Source: an uncultured OM182 clade bacterium
GTDB taxonomy: Bacteria > Pseudomonadota > Gammaproteobacteria > Pseudomonadales > Azotimanducaceae
Direction: 5' to 3'
Length of the DNA stretch: 64,000 nucleotides
Assembly: GCA_905182025.1 (NCBI GenBank)
Contig: CAJJAA010000023.1
Span: 80,334 to 144,333, forward strand
Part shown: piece by piece, positions 4,298 to 14,452 of the stretch
Layout of the letters: every line of letters starts with the position of its first letter
Numbering within the stretch: position 1 is the stretch's first letter
Made by a program: the position numbers and the translations under genes
The notes under the pieces: generated by a model
Told to the model about the DNA's origin: nothing
The model's input: only the letters and a program-made list of their open reading frames with translations
The model's database searches: none

Positions 4298-7804
<3,507 letters not shown>

Positions 7805-7808
<4 letters not shown>

Positions 7809-8923
7809 AACTTCATTGGCATAACCACATAAACAGAATCATCATCTTGCATCTCTTCTAAAAGCGCACTGCTGTTCGAATCTGCTAATGTGAGCTTTAC
7901 TTTCTCACCTTGAAGTACACCCAACACATCCTGCAAATACACGACGTTAAACCCAACCTCTAGTGCCTCCCCTTCATAATCAACCACGACGGACTCCTCC
8001 GCTTCTTCCTGCTCAGGGTTGTTGGCTGAAAGTTGAAGCACACCTGAAGACAAATTCACACGTATACCGCGAAACTTCTCATTTGAAAGAATTGCTGTTC
8101 GGCTAAGTGCTTGACGTAATTCAAGCCTATCGGCGATGACAGTCTTATTGCCGTTTTTAGGTACAACACGGTCGTAGTCTGGAAATCGTCCATCAACCAA
8201 TTTAGTCGTAAAAGTAAAATCATCTGATTCTGCACGGAGATGGTTGGCGCCAATCGTGATTTGCACGTCTCCGTCAAGTTCGTTTAACAGCCTCTGCAGC
8301 TCTTGCACACCCTTGCGAGGCACAATCACCTGCTGAACACCTTCGCACTGAGTGTCGTGCTTAAGGCTACTCATAGCCAGCCGGTGACCATCTGTTGCTA
8401 CACAGCGGATGTGTTCCTCGGCCATTTCAACCAACATGCCATTTAGAAAATATCGAACGTCTTGTTGTGCCATTGCGAAACCGGTTCGATCGATGAGTCG
8501 TTTGAAGGCTTTACTATCCAAAGTAAGCGTTACTTCAGAGGCAGATATATCAACCGAAGGAAAATCGCTTGCAGGTAGTGTTGACAGAGCAGACCGAAAG
8601 CGGCCTGACTTTATTGTCAACCTTTGGTCCTTAAGACTCAATTCAATCTCGGCTCCCTCAGGGATCTCTCGACAGATATCCATAAGCTTCCGCGCAGGAA
8701 CTGTGACTTCCCCGGATTCAGCATTTTCCAATGCGATACGTCCAACCAGCTCAACTTCCAAATCGGTGCCCGTAATAGAGAGTTGGTTTGAATCAATATT
8801 TAACAGTACATTTGATAATACCGGTAATGTCTGTCGTTTCTCGACCACTCCCGCAACTTGCTGGAGAGGCTTAAGAAGCGTCTCTCGGTTCACTATAACT
8901 TTCATACTAAACTCATTCCTCAA
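7805..8923 (-). CDS. dnaN: DNA polymerase III beta sliding clamp, canonical copy (start probably 8905, MKVIVNRE)
   Basis: DVRYFLNGMLVE, VATDGHRLAMSS, KLVDGRFPDY, ILSNEKFRGIRV, NNPEQEEAEE, C-terminus VVMPMKL. Confidence 0.97.
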
Positions 8924-8971
8924 TTTACTTATAGTTAGCGCTTACTATCGCTATGTTCCTTTAAAACAGAA

Positions 8972-10078
8972 CTACAACATCATTGGGCTTACCACAAAGC
9001 GTGACTGGTCGTCCTCAGGATTTGTCATCAAAACAGGACTATTGTGGTCACTCAACTCTAGCCTTACTTTCGTACCGCTCATTTTTTGCAGTACATCGAG
9101 TAGGTAGCTGACATTAAAACCAATTTCTAAATCTTCGCCTTCGTAATCTACCGACACGACCTCCTCCGCCTCTTCCTGCATTGGGTTGTTGGCTTTGAGT
9201 TGCAGTTCACCTTTAGAAAGACAGAGTTTCACATTGCGGTACATTTCGTTAGACAATATTGCAATTCGACTCAACGTGTCTTTTAACTCAAGTCTGTCTA
9301 ACAACAAAATTTTGTCGCTGCCAACAGGAATGGCGCCTGTATAATCTGGATAACTGCCATCAATAAGTTTAGTCGTAAAATTCGCGCTGGCGCCCACGAC
9401 GCTTAAATGATTTGGCGACATCAGCAATGACACGCTTTCGTCCTTAATATCCTTAAGTAGTTTCGATAATTCTAAAACACCCTTTCTAGGAATGATGTAC
9501 TGCTTCACCTCGAGCTCTTGTTGTTCTAGCGCGCGCTCTGCAATGGCCAACCTTTGCCCATTGGTTGCAACAGCACGAAGAACTCCATCGCCAAACTCCA
9601 ACAACATGCCATTAAAGAAATATCGAACATCCTGCAACGCCATGGCAAAACTGGTACTTTCAAGCAATTCTCTAAACTCTATCACAGGCACATCGAGCTG
9701 CATTGCAGCAGAATCCAACTCGACCTTCGGGAAATCTATTGCTGGCAACGTTGCGAGATGAGATTTAAACCGCCCGCTTTGAAGCGAAACCCTGGTGCCT
9801 TCCAACGCGACATCCACAACCGCCTGACTCGGCAGGCTCCTGCAGATGTCGAAAAGTTTTTGAGCAGGCACAGTCACCTCACCTGAAACGGCGTTAGTCA
9901 GATCTGCAATTGATACCGACAGCTCTACTTCCTGATCTGTACCCGTCAGTGTCAATTGACCCTCTTTGACGACACAAAGGATATTTGCCAAAACAGGTAA
10001 GGTTTGCCTACGCTCGACCACACTCGTAACCAGCGCGAGAGGCGATATTAAAGCCTCCTTATCTACCGAAAATTTCAT
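8972..10078 (-). CDS. Second, diverged DNA polymerase III beta sliding clamp paralog
   Basis: 368 aa, full-length beta-clamp: ERRQTLPVLANIL, SGEVTVPAQKLFDICR, DVRYFFNGMLLE, VATNGQRLAI, ILSNEMYRNVKL, C-terminus VVSPMML; collinear with the adjacent dnaN. Confidence 0.95.
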   Translation of the reverse strand: MKFSVDKEALISPLALVTSVVERRQTLPVLANILCVVKEGQLTLTGTDQEVELSVSIADLTNAVSGEVTVPAQKLFDICRSLPSQAVVDVALEGTRVSLQSGRFKSHLATLPAIDFPKVELDSAAMQLDVPVIEFRELLESTSFAMALQDVRYFFNGMLLEFGDGVLRAVATNGQRLAIAERALEQQELEVKQYIIPRKGVLELSKLLKDIKDESVSLLMSPNHLSVVGASANFTTKLIDGSYPDYTGAIPVGSDKILLLDRLELKDTLSRIAILSNEMYRNVKLCLSKGELQLKANNPMQEEAEEVVSVDYEGEDLEIGFNVSYLLDVLQKMSGTKVRLELSDHNSPVLMTNPEDDQSRFVVSPMML

Positions 10079-10094
10079 CTAAAAACCCTGTTTC

Positions 10095-11435
10095 TTATGC
10101 CGTAAGTATTCGTAACAAATTATTATAATCTTCGCGTATATCTCGTATTTGCTCCCGTAACTCTTCTACTTTACGGCATGCGTGCAAAACGGTTGTATGG
10201 TCCCTGCCACCGAACGCATCGCCAATTTCCGGAAGGCTATGGTTCGTTAACTCTTTAGAAAGCGCCATCGCGATTTGTCGCGGTCTCGCTATTGAACGCG
10301 TCTTTTTCTTCGAATGCATGTCACTAATACGTATATTGTAATGCTCTGCTACCGTTTTCTGTATATTTTCAATCCCTACCTGCCTATCCTGGATCGCTAA
10401 CAAGTCTCTAAGCGCTTCTTTCACAAGACTCAGGCTAACTTCTCGCCCTGTAAAGTTAGCATTGGCATTTACTCGTTTTAGTGCGCCTTCTAGTTCTCTT
10501 ACGTTTGAGCGAATTTTCTCCGCTATAAAGAATGCAACCTCATGGGGTAAAACCGTGCCGTACTCCTCGGCTTTTTTCATCAAAATAGCGACTCTTGTCT
10601 CAAGTTCCGGCGGCTCCAGTGGCGCCGTCATACCCCAAACAAAACGACTTTTTAGCCTTTCCTCCAACCCGTCGATTTCTTTCGGGTACCGATCACACGT
10701 TAGAACGATCTGACTACCATTCTCTTGCAGTCGATTGAATACGTGGAAAAATTCTTCCTGCGACTTTACGCCCTTCGCAAGAAATTGAATATCGTCCATC
10801 AAAAGCACGTCAACGCTTCGATAACGCTGGGTAAAATCTGACATCGTGCCGGTCTCGATGGCCTTCACCATCTCCTCCATAAACCTCTGAGAGTACAGAC
10901 AAGCCACCTTCAAATGCGGGTGCTTCTCCAGGATCGCATTACCCACCGCATGCATCAAATGCGTTTTACCTAGACCTACGCCACCGTACAACAAAAGGCA
11001 TTTAGAGTCTTTTCCGACACTGTCGCTGATTTGCACCGCTGCTGCTCTTGCGAACTCGTTTGAGCGGCCTTCAACAAAATTATCGAAGGTGCAATCTGCC
11101 TTTAAATCGGCCATAGCGTAGAAGTGATCGCTCACTTTTGGCTTGCTATCCTTTACAGATCTGCCCGTCTGTGACGCGGCAATTTCTACATTCGTGCCAA
11201 TTTCAAGACTCACAGCTAGGCCTGCCTTGGATTTTACCAGCGCCTCAATGCGCGGCATAAAATCACTTTGAACTTGATCTCGAATGTAACGATTAGGTGC
11301 GAGTAGTCGCACGCCTTCCGCAGAAGTCTGTACCTGAAGCGGACGAATCCAAGTGCTATACTGCTGCGAAGATAACTCATCTTCTAGACTCGACAAACAT
11401 TGCTGCCAGACTGTATCGCCCACGGGTTCCTCCAC
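10095..11435 (-). CDS. dnaA: Chromosomal replication initiator DnaA
   Basis: [33 protein letters not shown]-terminal [16 protein letters not shown]. Confidence 0.98.
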
Positions 11436-12001
11436 AGTGACTTGTTAGGAAAAATTAGATAATTCTTCGTAGTTATAGACTAAAAGCGTCTAAATCTTTG
11501 CAGAGCATAGTACCCCTATTCCCATCTTCACGCCAACTATCCACAGCAAAAAAACAATTTAAAACCACTTATATTTCAAGCATTTAGATTAACAACCGGT
11601 TAACAACCTAAGGGTAACCTGTGGATAACTTGTGAATAAAATCGCCTAAAATCGGTCAAAAAAAATCCCTGTGGATAACTCACTAAAACATACCCAGCTT
11701 GCCCACAGCCTGGCGACAACTGATACATCTTCCAACAACAGCCTTATCCTGCCGCTAACCGATTGAATACATACAAATTAAAACACTTCTCCACAGATTC
11801 CTTCTTCTTAATAACTAGTAACAATAATAACTTTTATATATATATACATACTTATATATTAAGCGCTCTACCAGACACCGTCACTTCATCTGAGATTTTC
11901 GCGGCAATGATATAACCTAAATGAGAAATTGACTCATAACCCGTAAATCATTAGAATCCCCGCTCTTTTTTCCGCCCTTTAGAACTATTTGGTAACTCAT
12001 C
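11436..12001. other. oriC: oriC / dnaA-rpmH intergenic origin region
   Basis: DnaA-box matches: TGTGGATAA at 11620-11628 and 11670-11678 (TTATCCACA, minus), TGTGAATAA at 11631-11639 (TTATTCACA, minus); one-mismatch boxes ctatccaca 11537-11545 and ttctccaca 11787-11795; AT-rich tract 11808-11860; conserved dnaA/rpmH context. Confidence 0.88.
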
Positions 12002-12136
12002 ATGAAAAGAACATTTCAACCTAGTGTCATCAAGCGAAAGCGCTCACACGGTTTTCGATCAAGAATGGCCACGAAGAACGGTCGTTTGGTATTAAAGCGC
12101 CGCAGAGCTAAAGGCCGAAAGGTTCTTTCTGCATAA
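12002..12136 (+). CDS. rpmH: 50S ribosomal protein L34
   Basis: Manual translation [44 protein letters not shown] (44 aa), too short for the ORF track. Confidence 0.98.
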
Positions 12137-12159
12137 GCACGTACGCAAACCTTCGATCT

Positions 12160-12534
12160 ATGCCAGATCAGAGTTTCCCCGCATATCGTAGACTGCTAAC
12201 CTCCTCTGAATTCGATACTGTGTTCAAGGATAATCACGTCCGGGTAAGTTCTCCCGAGTTCTTGGTTCTCGCTGCGCTGACAAATCTTCCTGCTAGTCGG
12301 CTCGGCATGGTTATCGGCAAAAAGAACACTAACCAAGCAAACGATCGAAATAAGATCAAAAGAGCCATCAGAGAGACATTTAGAAAAAATTTTCCGCATC
12401 AACCCTCAGTAGATGTCGTTATAGTATCTCGCAAAGCGGTTGACCCTGAGTTTCCGACAAAACTGAACACCATACTCGACGAGATTTGGTCGAAACTAAG
12501 CAGAAAAATATCGACCAAGGTAGACAATGGTTAA
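12160..12534 (+). CDS. rnpA: Ribonuclease P protein component
   Basis: RLGMVIGKKNTNQANDRNKIKRAIRETFR; follows rpmH. Confidence 0.95.
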   Translation: MPDQSFPAYRRLLTSSEFDTVFKDNHVRVSSPEFLVLAALTNLPASRLGMVIGKKNTNQANDRNKIKRAIRETFRKNFPHQPSVDVVIVSRKAVDPEFPTKLNTILDEIWSKLSRKISTKVDNG

Positions 12535-12754
12535 GAACATACTCATTACCATTATTAGAACTTACCAACTTAGTTTCAGCTATTTTGTGGGAAGAAGCTG
12601 TCGTTTCTACCCCTCCTGTTCCGAATATACAAAACAAGCTATTGAGCTCCACGGATCTGCCAAAGGATCTTTGCTTGGGGTCAAAAGAATATGTAAATGT
12701 CATCCTTTCCACGAAGGTGGTATCGATAACGTTCCCACTACCGATTTACGATAG
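12527..12754 (+). CDS. yidD: Membrane protein insertion efficiency factor YidD
   Basis: IRTYQLSFSYFVGRSCRFYPSCSEYTKQAIELHG; between rnpA and yidC. Confidence 0.95.
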   Translation: MVKNILITIIRTYQLSFSYFVGRSCRFYPSCSEYTKQAIELHGSAKGSLLGVKRICKCHPFHEGGIDNVPTTDLR

Positions 12755-12766
12755 GTTTAGGTAACA

Positions 12767-14452
12767 ATGGATTTTCAACGGATTTTAATACTTGCTGGCT
12801 TAGCTGTTACAGCCTACATGCTGGTATTGGCGTGGAACAACGACTACAACCAGCCTGGTCAAACTGATCTTTCTAGCACCTCGGTTAATCAGGTTACCTC
12901 GGGACCCGACCCGGTCGTTCCTCAAATATCAGGCACTGAATCAGAATTCATTCCAACCTTAGATTCAGCAGTCGGTAGCGCTGTTCAGATGAACGCTACT
13001 GACTTTGGTCAAACTTCAACAAACCAAAAACTCGTCCGCGTTGTAACGGATGTACTTGTCGTCGAAATCGATGTTGTCGGCGGGGATATTAAGAAGTTAT
13101 CACTGCCTGCTTTTCCTATAGCGCTCGACAAACTTGACGAACCCTATGTACTCCTTGACCCGCGTAACAGTTACTCGGCACAGAGTGGACTGATTGGTGA
13201 TAACGGCACCGATACCGCAGCGGGTAGACCTACCTACAGCGTTGATTCGGACTTCTACGAACTTGATCAAACGAAGGACACGCTCACTGTTGATTTGGTT
13301 TTAGAACAGTCGCAGGGCGTAACAATCACTAAACGTTTTACCTTCAGACGCGCAGACTACCTCATTGATGTTGAATACATTATCAACAACCAAGCCAGCA
13401 CTGATTGGCGCGGTGCCTTGTTTACACAGATTAAAAGAGACAGTGCGGTACCGGTTCTATCTGACGAATCTGGCATGGGTATGCAACCCTACGTTGGTGG
13501 AGCGACATTTCAGCAAGAGGGTCCCTACACCAAATTAGAATTCGATGACATCGAAGAAGAGTCCTACAAACATAAGGTAAACGGTGGCTATATGGCCATG
13601 GTTCAGCATTACTTTGTTAGTGCTTGGGTACCAGGTGACCTTAACGCCTACACATACCAAGCGAGAAAACTGACTAATCAGGATTCCTATTTGTTTGGTT
13701 TTACCGGCCCATTAACGTCCATCCTGTCTGGCCAGGAAGGATCAATGACTGCTAAATTCTATGCCGGTCCGAAGGACCAACATACTCTGGAAACTATTTC
13801 GACCGGACTCAACCTAACGATTGATTACGGTTTCTTATGGTGGCTGGCGCAACCGCTATTTGATTTACTCACTTTCATACATAGCTTTGTTGGCAACTGG
13901 GGTGGGTCGATAATTATTCTGACCATTATTGTCAAATCTCTCTTATATCCTTTATCCGCGGCCAGCTTCAAGTCGATGGCGAAGATGAGAAAACTCCAGC
14001 CTGAAATGGCGAAACTGAAAGAAAGGCATGGAGACGATAAGCAAAAATTTTCCCAATCAATGATGGAATTGTATAAGAAAGAAGGTGCAAACCCACTTGG
14101 TGGTTGTTTACCCATGCTCTTGCAAATGCCTGTTTTTATAGCCTTGTACTGGGCTCTCATGGAAAGTGTTGAACTAAGACAAGCGCCGTTTATTCTATGG
14201 ATAGATGATTTGTCAGCAATGGACCCGTATTTCGTTTTACCGATATTGATGGGTATTTCGATGTTTCTCACGCAGATGATGCAGCCTGAACCACCTGATC
14301 CTATTCAGGCTAAAGTGTTTAAACTTATGCCAATAATGTTCACTTTCTTCTTCCTATGGTTCCCGTCTGGCTTAGTGCTTTATTGGTTCATCAATAATTT
14401 ACTCTCAATTCTCCAGCAGTGGTTTGTTACTCGGCAAGTCGCGAAGGGCTGA
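12767..14452 (+). CDS. yidC: Membrane protein insertase YidC
   Basis: MDFQRILILAGLAVTAYMLVLAWN; GGSIIILTIIVKSLLYPLSAASFKSMAKMRKLQPE. Confidence 0.98.
   Translation: MDFQRILILAGLAVTAYMLVLAWNNDYNQPGQTDLSSTSVNQVTSGPDPVVPQISGTESEFIPTLDSAVGSAVQMNATDFGQTSTNQKLVRVVTDVLVVEIDVVGGDIKKLSLPAFPIALDKLDEPYVLLDPRNSYSAQSGLIGDNGTDTAAGRPTYSVDSDFYELDQTKDTLTVDLVLEQSQGVTITKRFTFRRADYLIDVEYIINNQASTDWRGALFTQIKRDSAVPVLSDESGMGMQPYVGGATFQQEGPYTKLEFDDIEEESYKHKVNGGYMAMVQHYFVSAWVPGDLNAYTYQARKLTNQDSYLFGFTGPLTSILSGQEGSMTAKFYAGPKDQHTLETISTGLNLTIDYGFLWWLAQPLFDLLTFIHSFVGNWGGSIIILTIIVKSLLYPLSAASFKSMAKMRKLQPEMAKLKERHGDDKQKFSQSMMELYKKEGANPLGGCLPMLLQMPVFIALYWALMESVELRQAPFILWIDDLSAMDPYFVLPILMGISMFLTQMMQPEPPDPIQAKVFKLMPIMFTFFFLWFPSGLVLYWFINNLLSILQQWFVTRQVAKG

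Follow-up and report, generated by a model that had tools for sequence, protein, structure and literature searches.

Two complete β-clamp genes (dnaN) stand in tandem between dnaA and recF in the window, the whole stretch of 64,000 nucleotides of DNA analysed here. They derive from a single ancient tandem duplication, after which one copy (B) would have served as the general clamp and the other (A) would have been retained as a ring-forming protomer with a rebuilt partner-binding cleft. Bacteria usually manage with one clamp.

Organisation of the locus

The genes follow each other on the minus strand in the order dnaA, dnaN-A, dnaN-B, recF, and gyrB, and the ORF positions bear out the arrangement given in a preliminary description of this DNA. 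The dnaA gene (10095..11435; TIGR00362, 552 bits) is separated by a 16-bp spacer devoid of terminator (10079..10094) from dnaN-A (8972..10078), which encodes the divergent, dnaA-proximal clamp of 368 residues. A second terminator-free spacer (8906..8971), carrying a ribosome-binding-site-like GAGGAA, leads to dnaN-B (7805..8905), which encodes the canonical, recF-proximal clamp. The recF gene (6705..7808; TIGR00611) shares 4 bp with dnaN-B at the stop of the latter, and gyrB (4298..6733; TIGR01059 / NF011501) comes next.

The dnaN-B frame is open up to a TTG at 8923 (7805-8923, minus strand), giving the 372 residues previously reported. Its start is most likely the ATG at 8905, since orthologues begin with MK[F/V]; the GAGGAA lies upstream of this ATG. 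Both clamp ORFs are intact as described and the length of copy A stands, with copy B more likely comprising 366 residues. Likewise, the 16-bp gap after dnaA is confirmed, and with the ATG start the gap between the copies is therefore 66 bp, not 48 bp. The motifs quoted for the two clamps are found exactly as they had been written.

No terminator-like site was detected on the minus strand from dnaA to dnaN-B, which makes co-transcription of dnaA, dnaN-A, and dnaN-B plausible. The minimum of the cumulative GC skew falls near 13-14 kb of the window, just past dnaA (11436-14000), and the replication origin is therefore probably located in or close to the dnaA upstream region.

Both copies are recognisable DnaN proteins. 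They pass the equivalog cut-off of TIGR00663 (363 bits for B and 306 for A, against 137.65), and the three Pfam clamp domains are all present in each. Their full-length identity is 52%, and a genome search identified them as the sole two clamps in the 3.1-Mb assembly. With canonical DnaN (TIGR00663) they share the fold, the three domains, the operon position, the dimer core, and the DNA-contact residues. Copy B also possesses the canonical partner-binding cleft, according to the published residue list (PMC11139829). In contrast, copy A deviates from this list at positions 155, 175, 247, and 362, with adjacent changes at 173 and 241, and lacks E298 and K277. It is therefore filed, from its sequence, as a divergent clamp paralogue and not as a canonical clamp.

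Distribution of the pair

Among 274 evenly drawn Gammaproteobacteria, two clamp matches occur in 10 genomes including that of the window, some of which may represent one gene in pieces. In the window's family, 207 genomes were searched and 185 returned a clamp match, second clamps being concentrated in a few genera. A search of 84,980 prokaryote genomes with two copy A peptides, VATNGQRLA and QDVRYFFN, yielded 42 loci. Apart from one weak match (27% identity), every locus is from a metagenome assembly of Gammaproteobacteria, Pseudomonadales, or Proteobacteria; two are from genomes named K189A clade, which NCBI places in the OMG group of Gammaproteobacteria. From isolate names and the K189A label, the uncultured, pair-bearing group is apparently marine.

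Altogether, the pair is found in about 38 genomes of nine genera. The gene order dnaA-A-B-recF-gyrB is observed in genera g1, g2, g8, g14, g20, g22, g24, g25, and g30, being split across two contigs in g2. The clade belongs to the Pseudomonadales and is known here from metagenomes alone.

Multiple dnaN homologues are known in Oscillatoria, Bacillus, Fusobacteria, and others (PMC8357120). Their genomes likewise encode two or more clamps, acquired by duplication or transfer; the present case differs in that one ancient tandem pair, located at the origin, can be followed through nine genera, with its divergence concentrated in the cleft. Searches of open-licence papers for tandem or paralogous dnaN genes turned up no account of two copies maintained by vertical descent in which one cleft had been rebuilt.

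A second full-length DnaN also occurs as GriR or MypR in producers of griselimycin and mycoplanecin, where it confers self-resistance to drugs acting on the clamp (PMC10817943). Copy A might by analogy be a resistance clamp against a DnaN-targeting natural product. This reading is very improbable: GriR and MypR reside in antibiotic gene clusters near transposases, whereas copy A sits in the dnaA operon at the origin, is inherited vertically throughout the clade, and has neither a biosynthetic cluster nor a transposase within dnaA-gyrB.

Ancestry and losses

The history of the two copies was followed in a careful clamp tree rooted on E. coli, with 28 rows in the A clade and 36 in the B clade, and in a quick tree with all rows. 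In the E. coli-rooted tree, all A copies form one clade (support 100/98), the B copies form another that also includes the single clamps found in these lineages (100/96), and the two are joined at 100/95. A species tree of GyrB, RecF, and DnaA recovers the same clade at 100. The trees show that all copies are explained by a single tandem duplication, ancient and placed in the common ancestor of the clade, with vertical inheritance afterwards. Each copy constitutes a conserved orthologous group, and the pair is neither recent nor, judging from these phylogenies, an artefact; the strain-specific duplication or assembly error that had been considered at the outset is contradicted by them.

Two side observations belong here. 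At the dimer interface, both clamps of the clade have exchanged a Ser and a Phe, with F104/S106 fixed where single-copy relatives have S104/F106; being common to A and B, the change is older than the duplication and agrees with a single ancient origin of the pair. F106 has been described as conserved in the clamp (PMC11139829). In two other genera of the family, single clamps are extremely divergent (L073 from G016, g13, and L074 from G010, g7; Pfam E about 1e-10 to 1e-15), and both lie on very long branches in the clamp tree and in the GyrB/RecF/DnaA tree.

Copy A has no counterpart in g55, g28, two g14 genomes, and three examined g24 genomes. In a fourth g24 genome (G175), the clamp search gave one match. 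In G002, from the window's own genus, A is apparently absent, and the B-type gene beside dnaA is cut by the contig end; the junctions are clean in the other A-less genomes. The g55 and g28 absences represent one or two losses, and, as read from the loci, copy A has been lost at least four times, mostly in small-genome lineages. It is hence dispensable. A-less genomes are smaller (median 2.4 vs 3.5 Mb, p=0.0016, without phylogeny correction).

Selection on the two copies

Copy A is under purifying selection. Between close pairs, dN/dS amounts to 0.03-0.15 for A and 0.01-0.08 for B, far from the value near 1 that relaxed selection would give and that the preliminary description had held out as a counter-sign. 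Copy A typically shows a dN about double the value for B, and the distance to the outgroup is larger for A than for B in 36/36 genomes. The frequent disruption of the second copy, also contemplated at that stage, is not observed: the loci examined showed clean losses and no broken A gene.

These values bear on the idea that A is a redundant copy in slow decay, kept by chance or dosage. Its faster evolution and its repeated loss in mostly small genomes would fit. The low dN/dS, the intact state of A in the loci examined, and the same cleft signature in nine genera speak against decay, which is already largely refuted and retains a very small probability.

The cleft of copy A

The clamp cleft is evolutionarily preserved, and all known partners compete for it (PMC11139829). 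Its residues include 155, 175, 247, and 362, of which H175 and M362 bridge the two subsites; G174 and V344 are the only pocket residues described as not conserved (PMC11139829). An alignment of 38 A copies, 47 B-type clamps, and 50 outgroup clamps (E. coli numbering) comprises 124 positions conserved at ≥90% in B and outgroup. The conserved residue is lost in A at eleven of them, and exactly six are switched and fixed: L155F, D173N, H175Q, F241Y, V247A, and M362S. All six are located in or beside the partner-binding cleft, 173 and 241 adjoining listed cleft residues. Enrichment in the cleft is weaker with the published list (4/6 switched positions, p=0.0025; PMC11139829) than with a wider set drawn up by the analyst (6/6, p=1.2e-5).

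In the window, three minus-strand segments of dnaN-A harbor most of this signature. The QDVRYFFN codons (149-156; 9611..9634) hold L155F, with Phe in 37/38 A copies and Tyr in 1/38. The VATNGQRLA codons (170-178; 9545..9571) hold D173N and H175Q; the Asn is present in 38/38 and the Gln in 37/38 A copies, against Asp and His in B and outgroup. The codons of the SPMML end (8975..8989) place a Ser at the M362 position, as in 37/38 A copies, where all B and outgroup clamps have Met. The copy with the largest number of exceptions to the signature comes from G027, the smallest A-bearing genome found (2.1 Mb). In genus g22 (e.g., L117, L066), clamp A sits on a very long stem branch (0.95) with the signature kept, and Pol II is absent from every genome matched.

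Further changes in A affect S346 (to A/P), K277 (to a hydrophobic residue), G280 (to N), and E298 (to L/Q/M), and small fixed changes, Y278F and V281I, occur in B. Residues 276-281 presumably form the loader-contact loop, as in the delta-beta structure.

The alignment shows a cleft that appears to have been rebuilt once in A and then held fixed. Copy A would hence be specialised in its partner cleft, with an altered partner specificity. The earlier suggestion of a specialised clamp is well supported by the conserved orthologous groups, by purifying selection on A, and by these fixed differences.

Dimer interface and predicted ring formation

Copy A retains, largely or fully, I78, I272, L273, K74, E300, E304, Q149, and K198, as well as most DNA-contact residues. 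The hydrophobic interface core is kept in both copies; in A, I78 is found in 38/38, I272 in 31 (Val in 7), and L273 in 31 (Met in 6). Copy A is accordingly predicted to be a ring-forming, DNA-encircling protomer. Its ion pairing is weakened. Out of the six ion pairs listed in PMC11139829, B-B interfaces have 5.9, A-A interfaces 3.3, and the two A-B interfaces 4.3 and 4.6, and the fewer A-A pairs lead to the expectation of weaker A rings. The same six-pair count reveals no complementary charge pattern between A and B and no excess of A-B pairs, and gives no sign of an interface tuned for A-B pairing.

The window's A and B genes are in frame, and a read-through A-linker-B chain, with stops read as Gly, could therefore be folded. 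The alignment combined in-frame fused rows with single B rows; single A rows, misplaced by MAFFT on the B half, were left out. The fused model reaches a mean pLDDT of 85.6 and a pTM of 0.74 with a disordered linker, values obtained without a homodimer or non-binding control, and is compatible with a defined A-B arrangement. The heterodimeric clamp of the preliminary description is compatible with the retained core and, with the same proviso on controls, with the fused model; it finds no backing in charge complementarity.

Loader and candidate partners

A single HolA (delta) gene is present in every genome where it was found, and nearly all delta sequences read carry an SMSLF motif. With one delta gene, nearly always with this motif, both clamps would share the loader.

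In E. coli, a protomer without cleft is not loaded alone; paired with a wild-type protomer it is loaded and sustains Pol III as well as the wild-type clamp does, and a single cleft suffices for viability (PMC3022782). By analogy with this single-cleft clamp, an A-B ring that is loaded through B would be functional. The proposed ring is its equivalent, with one canonical and one altered cleft; the E. coli clamp, in contrast, is a laboratory construct with a broken cleft, where here the altered cleft is naturally kept.

Copy A could instead form homodimers only, serving one private process such as repair or a mobile-element protein, without any mixed ring. The distinct, fixed cleft of A, its hydrophobic interface core, and its altered loader-contact loop (K277 and G280 in A, against Y278F and V281I in B) would agree with such homodimers. 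They would, however, have the weakest ion pairing, and their ring, both of its clefts altered, would depend for loading on one loader whose delta motif is the usual one. We regard this exclusive arrangement as rather unlikely.

DnaE1, DnaE2, and ImuB are present both with and without A, and the QLxLF-type ends of DinB and Pol II, C-terminal in the latter, are kept in both situations. Comparing A-bearing with A-less genomes, no change of clamp-binding motif was found in DinB (QLxLF-type), delta (mostly SMSLF), or DnaE1 (xDLF). A clear clamp-binding motif is missing in most ImuB sequences. Outside g22, Pol II occurs in 29/33 A-bearing vs 2/10 A-less genomes (p=0.0001, hand count), and a phylogenetic test of this association has three independent pairs only, making significance unreachable. 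Pol II was not accepted as an A-specific partner: genus g22 keeps A while lacking Pol II, and the canonical C-terminal motif is retained. The distributions of ImuB/DinB, DnaE1/DnaE2, HolA, and Pol II give no sign of any A-specific polymerase partner either. The proposal of a repair-polymerase-specific clamp remains unsupported, Pol II and Pol IV having canonical motifs regardless of A.

Hda-model matches are present in 39/39 genomes tested, 12 of them below the curated cut-off, some of these 12 being maybe DnaA only. They are distributed alike in A-bearing, A-less, and outgroup genomes, and the suggestion of an altered RIDA or initiation circuit is left without support. Among Pol II, Pol IV, delta, and Hda, no sign of an A-specific partner was seen.

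In each of the eleven DnaE1 sequences read (L227-L237), from one-clamp and two-clamp genomes alike, the internal clamp-binding motif (G-x-x-D-L-F or D-M-F) apparently has no Gln at its first position. In the window's genome, outside the window (G000:C17:73470-74241), the sole DnaE-type match is split by frameshifts into several pieces and the search yielded no intact DnaE1, where relatives have two intact DnaE genes; the breaks are probably due to assembly errors or missing contigs in this 87%-complete genome.

Canonical motifs kept in all tested partners, and the sufficiency of one cleft for E. coli viability (PMC3022782), would also suit a regulatory or decoy protomer. In an A-B ring, it would remove one canonical cleft and limit clamp occupancy or polymerase switching, with no partner of its own. 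A broken cleft would do for such a role, yet six specific substitutions are held in nearly all of 38 diverged copies, suggesting a binding function; this reading is improbable.

A putative division of clamp labour

In the favoured scenario, held to be fairly likely, a tandem duplication of the ancestral dnaN took place once, in the clade's common ancestor. Copy B would be the general replication clamp throughout, and A should bind the usual QLxLF-type motifs differently, together with some other partner or partners. A mixed A-B ring would be loaded by the single clamp loader via the canonical cleft of B, and A would provide it with a second, non-competing docking site. The A-B heterodimer is tentatively proposed as the most likely working form, and an A homodimer with private partners is a possible one, at a somewhat lower probability. 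It is conceivable, if doubtful, that the pair makes a natural heterodimeric clamp, in which one protomer contributes the universal cleft, used in loading and replication, and the other an orthogonal cleft reserved for a dedicated partner.

Heterotrimeric PCNA of Crenarchaeota (PMC4894655) offers a likeness in working, with paralogous clamp subunits in one ring. It is not related in this sense, and the bacterial heterodimer is only proposed here.

The clade suggests a naturally divided clamp labour. It represents a natural test of the need for two clefts per ring, of how partner specificity is encoded, and of a division of labour between clamps as in some archaea. Antibiotics that target the cleft could meet a different response from a second, different cleft. 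If true, the heterodimeric clamp would be to bacteria what the hetero-PCNA toolbelt is to archaea.
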